Part shown: positions 8,196-62,476 of the stretch, piece after piece
Layout: every line of letters starts with the position of its first letter
Numbering within the stretch: position 1 is the first letter of the stretch
Assembly (NCBI RefSeq): GCF_000224785.1
Contig: NZ_AGAV01000005.1
Span: 372,001 to 436,000, forward strand
Length of the DNA stretch: 64,000 nt
Direction: 5' to 3'
Origin: Lentibacillus jeotgali
GTDB lineage: Bacteria; Bacillota; Bacilli; Bacillales; Amphibacillaceae
Program-made: the position numbers and the translations under genes
Notes under the pieces: generated by a model
The model's database searches: none
Told to the model about the DNA's origin: nothing
Seen by the model: the letters and a program-made list of their open reading frames with translations, nothing else

Positions 8196-8271
8196 GCTGG
8201 AAAAAGTTAAGGTATCAGCAGAAGAGGGAAATCATGAGCGGAAGAAAAGATTATCAGCCAGATGTACCGTA

Positions 8272-12370: not shown

Positions 12371-12491
12371 ACTTCAGCTTAAGAACAAGAACTTCTTCCC
12401 GAGAGTGAGAACTTCAGTCGGAAATGGGGGGACTCCTCCCGGAGAATGAAAACTTCGGCTCGAAAAAGAATTCTTCTACCAGAAGATGAAG
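12371..12491 (+). repeat. 20-nt phased tandem array D (six units)
   Basis: Units start at 12371, 12391, 12411, 12431, 12452 and 12472, that is every 20 bases with one single-base insertion. Each unit begins with a variant of ACTTC and continues with a C/G core and a purine-rich end (for example TTCTTCTACCAGAAGATGAA). It lies between the 3' ends of two convergent genes. The unit resembles those of arrays A-C but has one extra base before the CAGAAGA core. Confidence 0.65.
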
Positions 12492-49888: not shown

Positions 49889-49968
49889 ATGAGCAGAAAA
49901 GCGCGATTATCGGTAGAAGAACCGTAACATCAGTAGAAGACTGAAAACATCAGCGGCAAAAATAAAAC
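49889..49968 (+). repeat. 20-nt phased tandem array C (four units)
   Basis: Units start at 49889, 49909, 49929 and 49949: ATGAGCAGAAAA, ATCGGTAGAAGA, ATCAGTAGAAGA and ATCAGCGGCAAA, each followed by eight variable bases. Same unit as arrays A and B. It lies upstream of the amidohydrolase gene and runs into the terminator of the ferritin-like gene. Confidence 0.65.
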
Positions 49969-56362: not shown

Positions 56363-57298
56363 ATGGGAAAGAAAAAATTGGGACTGCTTGTGATGGCATA
56401 CGGAACGCCTTACAAGGAAGAAGACATTGAGCCGTATTACACAGATATCCGCCATGGAAGAAAGCCGTCTGAAGAAGCATTGCAGGATTTGAAAGATCGT
56501 TATAAGGCAATCGGCGGCATTTCACCACTGGCTAGAATTACGGAAGAACAGACCAAAGCATTGGAAGAAAAATTGAATGCGTCTCAGGATGATGTTGAAT
56601 TTAAGGCATACATTGGCTTGAAGCATATCCACCCGTTTATTGAAGATGCCGTCCAGCAAATGGCAGAAGATGGTATTGAGGAAGCTGTTTCCATTGTTCT
56701 GGCACCGCATTATTCAACGTTCAGTGTCAAATCGTATAACAAGCGTGCTAATGACACAGCTGAGAAATATGGCATTTCCATTGAATCAGTTGAAAGCTGG
56801 TATAACGAGCCGGGCTTTATCAAATACTGGGCTGACCAAATCAGTGCCGTATATGATGACATGCCTGCAGATGAGCGGGAAAAAGCTGTACTGGTCGTTT
56901 CCGCGCACAGCCTTCCGGAAAAGATTCTTAAGGACGGCGACCCATATCCGGATCAGCTGAAAGAAACAGCCCGTCTGATTTCTGAGGCGACTGGGATCAA
57001 GAACTATGCAATCGGCTGGCAAAGTGAAGGCAACACACCGGATCCATGGCTTGGTCCGGATGTGCAGGATCTGACTCGCGATTTGTATGAGCAGAAAGGT
57101 TACCGTTCGTTCGTTTATGCACCGGTCGGCTTTATTGCTGATCACCTGGAAGTGTTATATGACAATGACTATGAGTGTAAAGTGGTTTGCGATGAACTCG
57201 GAGCGACCTATCACCGCCCGGAAATGCCGAACGCTCATCCACAATTTATTGCAACCCTTGCTGATGTTGTTATGAATCAAGCGAAGCGTGAAGTATGA
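56363..57298 (+). CDS. hemH: Coproporphyrin ferrochelatase
   Basis: The 311-residue enzyme (also CpfC) inserts iron into coproporphyrin in the Gram-positive route. The catalytic residues are His182 in SAHSLPEK and Glu263 in [23 protein letters not shown] (about residues 113-125) is also typical. The stop overlaps the hemY start. ATG with GACGAGG upstream. Confidence 0.95.
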
Positions 57299-58704
57299 TG
57301 AGTGAAATGAAAAAGATATTAATAGCAGGCGGCGGCATAACAGGTTTATCCGCTGCCTACTATTTGCAAAAAGAGATCAACGAAAAAGGCTTGCCTTATG
57401 AGGTAAAACTTGTTGAAGCAGGAAACCGGCCGGGCGGCAAAATTAAAACAACCAGACGCAACGGATTTGTCATTGAGCAGGGGCCGGACTCATTTTTATC
57501 GCGTAAACAGCCGGGGATCAAATTAGTCAGGGAACTCGGGTTAAGTGATGAACTGGTCCGAAATGGCACAGGACAATCCTATATACTGGTCAATAACAAG
57601 CTGCATCAGATACCTAAAGGTTCATATATGGGGGTACCTGTAAGCGTTCGTCCGTTTTTATTTTCCAGTATTTTTTCGCCTACGGGGAAACTCCGTGCCG
57701 GGATGGATTTTGTAATGCCAAGAGGGAAAACAGGTGACCAGTCATTGGGAGGATTCTTCCGCCGGCGTTTCGGTGATGAACTGGTGGAAAATTTGATTGA
57801 ACCGCTTTTATCAGGGATTTACGCTGGTAATCTTGATGATATGGGCATTATGGCGACATTCCCGAATTTTTATCAGCTTGAACAGGAACACCGCAGTCTG
57901 ATCAAGGGTCTTCGGAAAACAATGCCGGACAAGAAGAAGCAGAAAAAATCGGGCGGGAAAAAACAAGGCATGTTTTACTCGTTCGAAAATGGACTGGAAA
58001 CATTGGTTGAACGCCTTGAGGAGGTACTGGGTGATATGATTTCGCTCAACACTGGAGTTGACCATGTCGAGAAAAAGGAGCACGGTTATAACGTTTTGTT
58101 AAGCAATGGTGAGGTGTACAAAGCAGATACGGTCATCTTGGCGACACCACATTATACGCTGCCGAAAACGTTCAGCCAGTTTGACGCTTTTGATGAATTT
58201 CGTGATATCCCAGCTACCTCTGTGGCCAATGTTGCTATGGCGTTTGATGAATCAGCGATTGAAAGGGATATCGATGGCACCGGATTTGTGGTGTCCCGAA
58301 ACAGTGACTTTAGAATCACTGCTTGCACCTGGACGCATAAAAAGTGGCCAAATGCTGCACCTGAAGGTAAAGCACTCGTCCGCTGCTATGTCGGCAGACC
58401 GGATGATCAATCGGTTGTAGATTTATCAGATGACGAAATTGTCGACATTGTCCTGAATGACTTAAACAAAACAATGAATATTACGGCAAAACCTGAATTC
58501 AGCGTCATCAGCCGCTGGCAAGATGCAATGCCCCAGTATACGGTCGGACATACCGAGCGGATTGCCAACGTACGTGAAAGTATGCGGCAGGAACTCCCGG
58601 GCGTCTTTATGGCCGGCAGTTCCTATGAAGGCGTCGGCATACCGGACTGTATCGATCAAGGCGAAAAAGCGGTCGCTGATGTGCTGGAATATTTGCGTGG
58701 CTGA
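57295..58704 (+). CDS. hemY: Coproporphyrinogen III oxidase (HemY/CgoX)
   Basis: The 469-residue flavoenzyme oxidises coproporphyrinogen III to coproporphyrin III. The FAD motif [13 protein letters not shown] lies at about residues 11-23; [11 protein letters not shown] is the family segment, and the C-terminal [16 protein letters not shown] closes the FAD site. A Lys-rich insertion (about residues 205-222, [12 protein letters not shown]) is an exposed loop. ATG at 57295 overlaps the hemH stop; a second ATG follows directly. Confidence 0.95.
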
Positions 58705-58750
58705 TTTTTGAGATCAACATCAGACTGTACGTTTGATGCCGGTCTTTTGT

Positions 58751-58865: not shown

Positions 58866-59025
58866 ATCAGCAGGAGAAACCGGGAATCTGCAGAATAGCA
58901 ATTAAATCTACGGAAGCATGATAATATCAACAGAAGACAGGGAAAATCAACAGATAAGCGGTAGTATCGACAGAAGAGAAAACTTATCGGCAGAAGATAA
59001 AATGTATCACCAGAAGAATAAAAGA
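58866..59025 (+). repeat. 20-nt phased tandem array A (eight units)
   Basis: Eight units start exactly every 20 bases (58866 to 59006), each ATC-NN-CAGAAGA-like followed by eight variable bases, for example ATCGACAGAAGAGAAAACTT. A ninth ATC begins at 59026. 58884-58998 is 98% identical to 60320-60434 of array B. Twenty is not a multiple of three, so this is not a protein repeat. Confidence 0.75.
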
Positions 59026-59046
59026 ATCCCCGAAAAACCATCCATC

Positions 59047-60084
59047 TTAATAAAATTGCTCGATTTGTTTTGAACTATTTATATATGGAAATGGGGAATG
59101 TTGTGGAAAATCGCTAATGCTCAGTGCATGGTATTTTCTTCCTCTATTTTGTCCATCGTGCTGAAGCTGCATGCTTTTTAAAATGGTATGAGCTGTTCTT
59201 GGTGAATCAATCTGCAGAGTTTCTCGGCATTTTTTATTTGTAATTATCGTTCCATGAAGAAGAAAATAATCCAATATAACCCTCTCATGGGCCTTAAAGG
59301 ACGTAAAGTGGCAGTTTGGACACTGTCATTTTTTGTATAAGCGCTTCATAGGGTAATGCTGGCATCTCTCACAAGGTATTCCTTTTATCAAATGCCGTTC
59401 AGTTAAATTATGCTCCCGTAATATGTCTATCCGAGGAGTATCTTCATGCAACAAGGTTCTGCTCAGCTTTCTTAACCCCGCTGTTGTAAATTGTTCCTCT
59501 GTAAATTTACTGTTTAATCGATCCAAATGCTGGTGCAAACTTTCATTGTGAATGATTTTATTATAAACATCCGGATCTTTTGTTACATTTTCAATAATGG
59601 TTGAGGGATAAGCGACGACAACAAGGATTTCAATCGGAATATTAAAAATACCATGACGCCCCAGCCAGGATGTTAAATGTGTTTTCTGTGCTTCGGCCTG
59701 CAAAATCGGATCCTTAAAAGAATATACTACTTCTCTATTTGTTTCTTGCGTCAACTGCTGCTGTTTTGAATCATATTTAAATGTACCTTTTTTATTTTTA
59801 ACCTCAAGAATGCAGATAAAGCTTGTTGTCAAGATGAGCGTGTCAATTTGAAAGTTAAATGGAGGGTTTGCCAATCGGATGCCTTGAAAAATGAAGAAAT
59901 CTTCATGTGGGTACGTGGAAAGTTTGTAGTCAACATTTCTTTCGCCGTCATAACCTGCTTTTTCCCGTTTGTAAGCAACAATCGCGTCATTTGGCAGGTA
60001 AGCCTTAGAAATCCTTCGAAACAACGCTTCATAACTTAATAGTGCATGAGACTTTTTTCTATATTTGATAATAGTCGGGGTCAA
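59047..60084 (-). pseudogene. NERD-domain nuclease-like gene broken by one in-frame TGA
   Basis: From the ATG at 60084 a 252-codon frame runs to a TGA at 59326-59328. The first part has the NERD domain (about residues 40-165; GERNVDYKL, IDTLILTTSFICILEVKNKKG) and ends with half of a zinc ribbon (CERCQHYPMKRLYKK). Directly after the TGA the same frame stays open for 92 codons. It begins QCPNCHFTSFKAHERVILDYF, the other half of the ribbon and the usual C-terminal domain. Homologues have Trp (TGG) at that position as I recall, so a single G-to-A change explains the stop. Read-through or a sequencing error are alternatives. Arrays A and B flank the gene. Confidence 0.8.
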
Positions 60085-60301
60085 ATTTGAATCACTCCTT
60101 TTTGTTATTAGCTATATATTCTGCAAAAGATTATAATTTCCTGCTGTAAGCTATGAATCTTTTGTGACAAAATAGCCCAGTCACGATAAAATGCCACTCG
60201 AAGTTTAAACTGACATGAAAAAGCGATTACGAAAGGACTGTCTAGAAGAATGGATATAACGGCGGCGAAAAAAAGAGTCAACAGAACTTTTAAAAGTATA
60301 T

Positions 60302-60481
60302 ACCGGCAGGAGATGAACAGAATCTGCAGAATAGCAATTAAATCTACGGAAGAATGATAATATCAACAGAAGACAGGGGAAATCAACAGATAAGCGGTAG
60401 TATCGACAGAAGAGAAAACTTATCGGCAGAAGATTAATAGTATCGACAGGATACAGGAAATATCAACAGAAGCATCACCGG
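60302..60481 (+). repeat. 20-nt phased tandem array B (nine units)
   Basis: Units start at 60302 and then every 20 bases up to 60462 without a single slip. The first has ACC instead of ATC. Same consensus as array A; six consecutive units are nearly the same sequence, including the variable parts, so A and B share a recent origin. Confidence 0.75.
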
Positions 60482-60496
60482 ACAAACCTTTCTGAT

Positions 60497-60526
60497 AAAA
60501 AAGTGCCCCAGTCGAAACTGGGACAC
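60497..60526 (-). terminator. Terminator after pepF
   Basis: Minus strand GTGTCCCAGT / ACTGGGGCAC (one mismatch-tolerant pair) with a four-base loop and TTTTTT. Confidence 0.85.
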
Positions 60527-60533
60527 AGCGTTC

Positions 60534-62345
60534 CTATTCATAACTTTTCTCCAATTCGTCAACGAGTTCACCTACATAGGCGACAGCTTCTCTGATGGCA
60601 TCAGGCTGTGACATATCGATACCAGCCTTTTTGGCCAGGTCTAGCGGTTTCATTGTACCGCCTGCCTTTAAAACAGCCATCCAGCGATCGACAGCCGGTT
60701 GACCTTCTTTACGGATCATTCCGGCCATAGCGGTCGAAATCGTTAGACCAGCTGAATACGTATATGGATATAACCCCATATAATAGTGCGGCTGGCGCAT
60801 CCACATCAGGCCAGCGCCATCATCAATTGATACAGCATCTCCCCAGAAGTTTTCGATTGCCTCTATCTTCTGTTCGGACAAAACCGTGGCTGTCAGTGGC
60901 GTTCCTTCTTCAGCCAGAGCATAAATGCGGCGCTGAAATTCAGCCTCCAACAGATGTGTCACGAAGTTATGGTAATAGGTTCCAAGCAGTGAGCTGATGA
61001 CCCAGCGTTTCATCCGCTTGTCATCAGTTTTGGCCATCATATGATCGGCAAGCAGTAATTCGTTCAGGGTTGATGGTGCCTCGACAAAGTAAGTGGACGG
61101 CCTTGTGTTTACAAGGGACTGATTTTTTCCGGCCAGATAGAAATGGCCGGCGTGCCCAAGTTCATGTGCCAGAACAAATGCCCCCCGCATCGTGTCTGTC
61201 CATGTAATCAGGATATAGGGATGGACACCATAGGGAGAGGCACAAAATGCGCCAGTCTGTTTTCCGACATTGTCAGCACGGTCAATCCAGCGGTTATTAA
61301 TCCCTTCCTGAATGATATCACTGTATTCCGCCCCCATAATCTGCAGCGCTTCACGGATCGTATCTGTTGCTTCCTTGTAAGTTGTCTCCGGGTTAAAGTC
61401 CGGATCAAGTGGTGCTTTTAGATCGGCGTAGCGCATCTCGTTAAGTCCCAATTTCTGCTGTTTCAGTTTGGCATACCGGCGCATGTGCGGCGCTAATTCT
61501 TCCTGAATGACGTCGAGCTGATTATGATACATCTCCTTGGTTACCTGCTGCGGGTGGAGAAGCATATCGGTTACCGAATCATAGGTACGCAGGCGTGACG
61601 TTGTAACCTGTTTGGTCACTTCGGTAGCGTATGTTGCAGCATATGTGTTCTTGTACTGGTTCAGTGTTTTAATAAATGAGTCATACGCGTTTCTGCGGGT
61701 ATCTGTATCAGGCGACAATTCGTAGCTGTCCTCGAAAAGGGCGGCTGACATTGGCAGTTCGCTACCATTACTGTCTTTTATTGGATCAAATTTCATGTCA
61801 GCGGATTTGCTTCGTTCATAGATCATGAAAGGTGCACTATGTACTTCATCAAGTGCAGCAAGTGTTTCTTCAATTTCAGGTGCCAGTGTGAACGGCTTTT
61901 TTTCCAGGACGTCCTCAAGCATTTTTCGGTATATTTCCAGCTCCGGTTCTTCGCTTATGAAGTGGTCGATTATATCGTTCGTTAATTGCAGTAGTTCAGT
62001 TTCAACGAACGATAATTTCGCACCGATTGCAGCCAGTACAGATGATACTTTGGCGGAATCTGCCTGATTTTGCGGATCAGTTCCATCCGCGCTCGATTTT
62101 AGATTGGCGTAGGTCGCCACACATATCAGGCGTTTTTCAAAATTCTTCTTTGCTTTCAGACCGTTTAACAGGTTTTCAGCGCTTGTTACCAAGTTGCCTT
62201 TATATTGGGTAACATCACTGACGTTTGCTTGGACAGCCTTCAATTCATATTCCCAATCTTCATGCGAAGTAAATAAATCAGTTAAGTCCCATGTTTGTTC
62301 TTTAGGTACTTCAGATCGTGCCAGACGTTTCGTTTCGGTCTTCAT
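60534..62345 (-). CDS. pepF: Oligoendopeptidase F
   Basis: The 603-residue M3B metallopeptidase cuts oligopeptides of about 7-17 residues in the cytoplasm. The zinc motif AHELGHAGHF (HExxH) and the downstream Glu in EAPSTLNELLLADH are intact, and so is the C-terminal YPYTYSAGLTIS region. ATG at 62345 with GGAAGGGAG upstream was chosen; the longer frame adds 30 hydrophobic residues without a ribosome site. B. subtilis relatives (YjbG) influence sporulation when overproduced. Confidence 0.95.
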   Translation of the reverse strand: MKTETKRLARSEVPKEQTWDLTDLFTSHEDWEYELKAVQANVSDVTQYKGNLVTSAENLLNGLKAKKNFEKRLICVATYANLKSSADGTDPQNQADSAKVSSVLAAIGAKLSFVETELLQLTNDIIDHFISEEPELEIYRKMLEDVLEKKPFTLAPEIEETLAALDEVHSAPFMIYERSKSADMKFDPIKDSNGSELPMSAALFEDSYELSPDTDTRRNAYDSFIKTLNQYKNTYAATYATEVTKQVTTSRLRTYDSVTDMLLHPQQVTKEMYHNQLDVIQEELAPHMRRYAKLKQQKLGLNEMRYADLKAPLDPDFNPETTYKEATDTIREALQIMGAEYSDIIQEGINNRWIDRADNVGKQTGAFCASPYGVHPYILITWTDTMRGAFVLAHELGHAGHFYLAGKNQSLVNTRPSTYFVEAPSTLNELLLADHMMAKTDDKRMKRWVISSLLGTYYHNFVTHLLEAEFQRRIYALAEEGTPLTATVLSEQKIEAIENFWGDAVSIDDGAGLMWMRQPHYYMGLYPYTYSAGLTISTAMAGMIRKEGQPAVDRWMAVLKAGGTMKPLDLAKKAGIDMSQPDAIREAVAYVGELVDELEKSYE

Positions 62346-62476
62346 AACAATACTCCCTTCCATTCGCTTCTCTAATAAATTATAAAATAAAAATAACTGA
62401 AATAACATCATTTTCGGATTTAAATAAAAAATCACGGGATAAGTGCCCGTGTTACAGTGAATACTTTATTATAGGA

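Follow-up and report, generated by a model that had tools for sequence, protein, structure and literature searches.

We analysed a 64,000-nucleotide stretch of the Lentibacillus jeotgali genome (the window; the genome itself is designated G000), in which five intergenic arrays of tandem units with a 20-nt register were located. Two of these, A and B, lie between the genes that we label hemY and pepF and enclose a gene encoding a NERD (nuclease-related) domain protein. The arrays and the features around them are the following:

8214..8253, plus strand: array E, two units, subfamily 1; luxS-like and M20 peptidase genes flank it
12373..12473, plus strand: array D, five units, subfamily 2 (WTCNNCYCGAGA followed by 8 bases); convergent genes flank it
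49889..49968, plus strand: array C, four units of 20 nt; M20 peptidase and ferritin-like genes, both on the minus strand, flank it
57295..58704, plus strand: hemY, left flank of A; flavin amine oxidoreductase family (Pfam Amino_oxidase, E 2.4e-70)
58718..58738, plus strand: terminator-like stem-loop after hemY, preceding array A
58866..59025, plus strand: array A, eight units of 20 nt, subfamily 1 (ATCNNCAGAAGA followed by 8 bases)
59326..60084, minus strand: NERD-domain gene between A and B (Pfam PF08378, E 1.2e-17)
60302..60481, plus strand: array B, nine units of 20 nt
60503..60526, minus strand: terminator-like stem-loop of pepF, between the pepF stop codon and array B
60534..62435, minus strand: pepF, oligopeptidase F, right flank of B (Pfam PF08439 and PF01432); head-on to the replication fork

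Direct reading of arrays A, B and C gave exact 20-nt steps throughout, at the coordinates of the original prediction. A subfamily-1 profile, made from 15 of 18 alignment rows after the three rows occurring in the window had been left out, scored 104.5 for A, 99.3 for B, 45.1 for C and 26.2 for E, far above the maximum of 17.7 obtained in 40 random Markov-1 windows. The same scan thus yielded a fifth array, E, which the original prediction did not contain. Array D had been described as carrying one additional base in each unit, which was refuted: it belongs to subfamily 2 and keeps the same 20-nt register. It extends over 12373-12473, with steps of 20, 20, 21 and 20 nt. With a subfamily-2 profile built without any window unit, D scored 56.6 versus a random maximum of 21.3 (40 windows). 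The common direction on the plus strand held as well, and it generalises to the leading strand (see below). The arrays had also been judged neither coding, which was supported, nor CRISPR. The near-identical repeats of a CRISPR measure about 23-50 nt and alternate with unique spacers of similar length; the unit lengths found here (conserved part 10-12 nt, variable part 8 nt) rule this out, and within several arrays the units are identical.

The Pfam-annotated neighbours of the window arrays included M20 peptidase, ferritin-like, NERD, LuxS, antiporter and other proteins, and the genes flanking array C recur around array loci in the genomes G007, G001 and G010. No Rfam match was obtained in the window. 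The 120-base pieces of A and D folded no better than their shuffles on either strand (DNA parameters), and secondary structure was rejected as a basis for the tested pieces. Array A had no match in the plasmid and phage collections, and a phage or plasmid origin was set aside on these grounds. One exact unit pair was noted on a single 4.2-kb contig of the viral collection (L272, 302-333).

The hemY-pepF locus and constraint on the core

Units 2-7 of A and B are identical at 115 of 120 positions. In G011, where the NERD-domain gene is absent between hemY and pepF, a single array takes the place of the array, gene and array of G000; its left end matches the left end of A and its right end the right end of B. 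As far as these sequences go, A and B seem to be parts of a single array interrupted by the NERD-domain gene. In G007 two arrays surround a sequence similar to the G000 insert (tblastx), and G002 has an insert-like sequence between its arrays, recognised by eye only; the simplest account would be that one insertion, common to the three species, duplicated part of the array. The four arrays reported originally are accordingly all real, but A and B cannot be counted as independent.

The hemY gene was found in all 12 genomes of the genus, and subfamily-1 arrays lie downstream of it in eight of them (3-27 units in the chains found). At this site no chain was obtained for G001, G009 or G010, and the matches listed for G005 are all weak, so no single array is essential. 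Downstream of hemY, G005 carries a different tandem repeat of 52 bases in about 10 copies (L206). The hemY-like gene of G007 (L207, G007:C1 349464-350831) contains two in-frame TGA codons, and is either broken or affected by a sequencing error.

The arrays of G000, G011 and G002 could be aligned unit by unit without gaps (nine units between G000 and G011, seven with G002), the G000 row being a composite of A and B units and seven of the eight G002 units being used. Pairwise differences among the three species amounted to 5/90, 5/70 and 3/70 in the core (4-7%) versus 13/72, 18/56 and 11/56 in the spacers of the same units (18-32%). At the two free core positions they reached 5/18, 7/14 and 4/14, and at the fourfold sites of hemY 67/134, 82/132 and 69/140 (49-62%). 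Constraint on the core was also evident from singleton changes in 36 homogeneous arrays (559 inner units, all genera fetched), whose frequency per site was 2.4-fold lower in the core (0.0050) than in the spacer (0.0119; p 2e-4), in a test that has an ascertainment bias because the profile itself found the units. Whether the units of close relatives lose their phase had been named as a critical point; the 20-nt register is held and the core sequence is constrained.

Size and distribution of the family

A paired-unit pattern allowing up to three mismatches had 86 matches in G000 (80 forward, 6 reverse), compared with none for the reversed control; the family is therefore dispersed far beyond the window, and the original observation is confirmed as real and larger than first reported. 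The three-unit profile placed subfamily 1 at about 22 distinct sites in this genome, after matches at E <= 0.001 had been merged and one assembly duplicate excluded. This duplicate concerns 3 kb that are identical on two contigs (G000:C13 55746-58777 and C14 272422-275453), probably an assembly duplication, and the C14 copy of the C13 array was counted once. A second pattern found subfamily 2 at 12 places, array D included, two of which lie at contig ends and may represent one array. The consensus of subfamily 1 is ATCNNCAGAAGA and that of subfamily 2 is WTCNNCYCGAGA, and both keep the 20-nt period. Of 354 steps in the genus 330 measured 20 nt, as did 583 of 625 in other genera, when counted by a chain finder that mildly penalises other steps. 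Outside arrays, ATCNNCAGAAGA had only 2:0 occurrences in 1.0 Mb of fetched stretches, so the array and not the single motif is the object.

Among the matches listed, the pattern was present in 11 of 40 genomes, namely G000 and 10 of its 11 genus relatives, and in none of the 28 genomes outside the genus; the reversed control gave a single listed match across the same 40 genomes, in G002. The genus relative lacking a pattern match, G005, had weak profile matches (best E 0.016 among those listed). The profile reached E < 0.001 in 11 of the 12 genus genomes and in some other genera of the family, again among the matches listed. At E <= 0.001, at least 26 of 159 genomes of the family matched, spread over at least 9 of 46 genera; several of these had one match only. 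Across sampled genomes of the order, which were searched with stricter filters than the family, 6 of 397 matched at 1e-4, five of them from the same family. Virgibacillus litoralis carries such arrays. The hosts are salt-loving relatives of Bacillus, in which the units are intergenic and scattered.

Orientation relative to replication

In the stretches around matches in five genus genomes, 61 of 63 subfamily-1 arrays were oriented along the locally G-rich (leading) strand, as were 23 of 24 subfamily-2 arrays in G000 and G001; the arrays were left in for these GC-skew calculations, L130 is counted in both sets, and L110, L115, L122 and L126, which gave no chain at the threshold, lie outside the 63. 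The strand bias relative to replication direction, raised as a question by the original prediction, is therefore nearly complete. Among the matches listed, the positions of dnaA and dif-like sites agree with the leading orientation in G001, G003, G007 and G011. Array L146 lies on the locally C-rich strand, yet agrees with its replichore, and L093 on contig 17 of G000 is a true lagging exception; L231 of the same genome is lagging too. Two pattern pairs (G011:C1:1889190 and G001:C1:2474585) oppose their replichore. Beyond the arrays, the word CAGAAGA shows a skew of only 113:69, far below the bias of the arrays. Neighbouring genes do not explain the orientation, since B and C are each flanked by genes running the opposite way.

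In other genera, all 16 free arrays examined in G083, G085 and G077 were leading, three of them in stretches with a skew below 0.035 (arrays were masked for this skew calculation). In G174, only one of the four arrays examined was leading by replichore, among the matches listed, and one array pair showed weak flank likeness. When listed matches of G001, G007 and G011 were pooled, none of 61 arrays fell in the last tenth of the origin-terminus distance, and the last third contained 13 of them (p 0.056; the contig order of G001 was inferred and some positions were rounded). None of the four arrays listed for G003 lay within 0.84 Mb of its dif-like site. Avoidance of the terminus is suggestive, being striking in single genomes and weaker when they are pooled.

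Position relative to genes

Convergent spacers are favoured and divergent ones avoided, which answers a second question of the original prediction, that of position relative to gene ends. The 63 arrays occupied 31 convergent, 31 codirectional and 1 divergent spacers. In these stretches the background comprised 406 spacers of 120 bp or longer, with 72, 233 and 101 in the respective classes; Fisher tests gave p 2e-7 for the convergent class and 2e-6 for the divergent one. Gene calling followed a simple ORF rule, on whose threshold the context classes depend: L095, L103, L109 and L112 change class between the 80-aa and 90-aa (arrays masked) rules, L103 being divergent at 80 aa. Subfamily 2 was found in 12 convergent, 12 codirectional and no divergent contexts. 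The median distance from an array to the facing stop codon was 67 bases, and a terminator-like site lay between gene end and array in 32 of 63 cases, a count made without a background run. The right-hand gene was on the opposite strand, against the fork, for 41 of 63 arrays; this follows from the convergent preference and supports no separate claim.

Homogenisation of units and element-borne arrays

Array loci recur between species: many carry an array in at least two of them, next to a flanking gene that is shared on one side or on both. The units at orthologous loci were no more alike overall (0.704, n = 26) than those at unrelated loci of different genomes (0.699, n = 1018; p 0.76), in a comparison of 12 locus groups of which some rest on only one shared flank (such as L097/L140, L099/L125 and L116/L145). 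Long-term conservation of units is thus evident at the hemY-pepF locus only. Likeness was higher among arrays at different loci within one genome (0.723, n = 439) than between genomes (0.699; p 3e-12, the pairs not being independent), an excess driven by G001 (0.734) and G007 (0.738), G000 reaching only 0.703. Unit sequences have therefore been homogenised in at least two genomes, while their places stay. Several arrays consist of 40-nt higher-order repeats. The original prediction held that the arrays are not the product of ordinary slippage, a claim left unsupported by these data: the range of 3-27 units downstream of hemY, the 40-nt repeats and the homogenisation in two genomes indicate that array expansion does occur, alongside constraint. 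Selection for a spacing of two helical turns, as proposed originally, is plausible.

Of 17 arrays in G164, a genome of another genus, 11 have one or both flanks in common, mostly over about 60-130 bp, as defined by BLAST of the flanks (a text rule had labelled eight). The loci L212-L227 of this genome have the appearance of a MITE-like element holding a 20-bp array, with inverted-looking TGCGAC ends in those read. Element-borne arrays were leading in five cases and lagging in six, and the free arrays of the same genome were all leading (6/6). The persistence of lagging element-borne arrays shows tolerance of the reverse orientation; the bias seen in free arrays must consequently arise at their birth, through functional selection, or by both routes. 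With closely similar units and random orientation, the element-borne arrays constitute a natural control. Among the 63 arrays of the window genus, flank matches at E < 1e-5 joined loci sharing a flanking gene, with one exception (L139-L147, right flank, 38 bp); the remaining cross-locus flank matches were short and weak. The conserved ends expected of MITEs were accordingly found for the 11 G164 arrays and not in the window genus.

Discussion

No description of this array family was recognised in the open-licence literature searched, as judged from titles and abstract beginnings, which agrees with the original statement that no named family of this form was known. REP and BIME elements of enterobacteria are extragenic and often lie past gene ends, and REP units are palindromic; the arrays described here, in contrast, are direct repeats, and the tested pieces do not fold better than shuffles. 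Bacterial VNTR minisatellites are tandem, vary in copy number and form higher-order repeats. A copy number differing between relatives is shared by the present arrays (3-27 units downstream of hemY), but unlike VNTRs they occupy many loci as one family with one period and one replication-strand orientation. The leading-strand skew of Chi, KOPS and SRS sites is shared as well, whereas the single dispersed motif of such sites is lacking (core 2:0 in 1.0 Mb). Plasmid iterons are direct repeats of about 17-22 bp with a conserved core, a variable linker and same-face phasing, situated beside a rep gene at one origin and recognised by an initiator protein. The arrays resemble them in being direct repeats near 20 bp in helical phase (330/354 steps of 20 nt) and differ in that dozens of them are spread across the chromosome at gene ends (about 22 sites in G000); an adjacent rep gene and origin were not found among the Pfam neighbours of the window arrays.

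According to PMC9426499, the parC centromere of the pSK41 ParMRC system consists of 20-bp direct repeats located upstream of parM, along which ParR, usually of the ribbon-helix-helix type, binds in a row. It is one plasmid site, unlike the many chromosomal sites reported here (PMC9426499). The STAR elements of Staphylococcus are dispersed intergenic direct repeats of a 14-bp motif spaced by at least 40 bp, whose number varies between species and whose conservation suggests an unknown function (PMC3532100). The arrays share with them a dispersed location between genes and a short conserved motif that recurs in direct orientation, separated by spacers. What sets the arrays apart is a strict 20-bp period, a core of unrelated sequence, an orientation locked to the fork and a bias towards convergent gene ends. 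By reading, the STAR motif TNTGTTGNGGCCCN (PMC3532100) does not correspond to either array consensus, ATCNNCAGAAGA or WTCNNCYCGAGA, and the terms "orientation" and "leading strand" are absent from the portion of PMC3532100 consulted. On the descriptions available, STAR elements are the nearest described kind, and pSK41-type parC and iterons, as generally known, have the nearest geometry; none of the three, so described, has dozens of fork-oriented chromosomal arrays.

These observations suggest either an undescribed directional chromosome landmark or a repeat whose spread is tied to the replication machinery. We tentatively prefer to regard the family as dispersed chromosomal, fork-polar, iteron-like arrays at gene ends that would be bound by a protein, with a probability of about 0.4. 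A putative DNA-binding protein would contact, in every 20-base unit, the roughly 10-12 conserved bases, and contacts on the same face every two helical turns would give a directional nucleoprotein row. Situated immediately beyond gene ends, in many cases in convergent spacers, and pointing along fork movement, such rows could insulate or organise gene boundaries in a manner suiting the passing replisome. We infer binding, its cooperativity and the role at gene ends from the core constraint, the fixed period across subfamilies and the gene-end placement, which favour this reading, as does the leading-strand orientation. The lagging element-borne arrays (6/11 in G164), the single leading array among four in G174, the lagging L093 and L231, the two pattern pairs opposing their replichore, the weak matches in G005, the lack of a chain downstream of hemY in G001, G009 and G010 and the low likeness of units at orthologous loci speak against it. 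Nearly as likely is a selfish or neutral satellite copied with replication, in which a single strand of the array at the fork (e.g., from displaced Okazaki fragments) would anneal to a seed unit elsewhere on the lagging-strand template and be copied in. Orientation to the fork would then be fixed at birth and location at gene ends would reflect tolerance only, as promoters are avoided. The greater likeness within genomes (0.723 versus 0.699), driven by G001 and G007, the 3-27 units at one locus, the 40-nt higher-order repeats, the survival of lagging element-borne arrays and the avoidance of divergent spacers are consistent with such a satellite. It accounts less readily for the low within-genome likeness in G000 (0.703), the core constraint both at the static hemY-pepF locus and in homogeneous arrays, the nine units in step between the A/B composite and G011, and the 20-nt period kept by distinct subfamilies. 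The two accounts are not exclusive, as a satellite bound by a protein could be both.

The remaining explanations are considerably less probable. Decayed mobile elements (MITEs) might have carried the array to each site, as the shared flanks of 11/17 G164 arrays, the inverted-looking ends of those read and the weak flank likeness of one G174 pair would indicate, but this is improbable given that strong flank matches in the window genus are confined to loci sharing a flanking gene, bar L139-L147, and that element-borne arrays are randomly oriented while free arrays are not. Marginally less credit is due to the idea that the arrays are polar sites read by a chromosome motor or by an enzyme of recombination, in the manner of SpoIIIE/FtsK sites or Chi. 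The fork polarity fits such a role, SpoIIIE and Lactococcus FtsK sites both contain AGAAG, and units of the GAGCGG form contain AGCGG, the Chi of B. subtilis; however, the core is no scattered motif, with 2:0 occurrences beyond the arrays in 1.0 Mb, GAGAAGGG is infrequent (9:3), AGCGG is little skewed (1055:844) and the arrays do not rise towards the terminus (0/61 in the last tenth and 13/61 in the last third among the matches listed, p 0.056). Chi or SpoIIIE-type sites were rejected as the main reading because the motif is not dispersed. An element acting at the RNA level, i.e., a terminator, attenuator or small-RNA array, is the least probable of all: arrays do lie after gene ends, 32/63 with a terminator-like site before them, but their orientation follows replication and not the neighbouring gene (41/63 right-hand genes on the opposite strand), pieces of A and D fold no better than shuffles and the window has no Rfam match.

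Returning to arrays bound by a protein, a polar gene-end marker relative to the fork would follow if a protein does read them, which bears on conflicts between replication and transcription. A wider and rather unlikely proposal is a new chromosome-organising class of fork-polar, two-turn-phased arrays marking gene boundaries relative to replication, in which period and polarity would be retained and cores may drift between subfamilies; further array families of these genomes, with 20-21-bp periods, would belong to one system with them. The near-complete replication-strand orientation, independent of the direction of neighbouring genes, offers a handle on the origin and spread of short repeats in bacteria.

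Other tandem families in the same stretches

The fetched stretches contain additional degenerate tandem families between genes, whose period is 21 bp and whose cores are unrelated (AACTTGTGCG, TCGCGCGA, AAGTTCACA..GCTC and AACTTCGGCG); they were observed in both orientations, at L096 2341, L097 1074 and 12673, L102 12595 and 18372, L106 15211, L112 17625 and other sites. A scan of lags over 278,772 bases outside ORFs of at least 130 aa, in stretches that had been chosen for their 20-nt arrays, gave 68 runs at lag 20, 24 at lag 21 and 16 at all other lags from 10 to 39 together.
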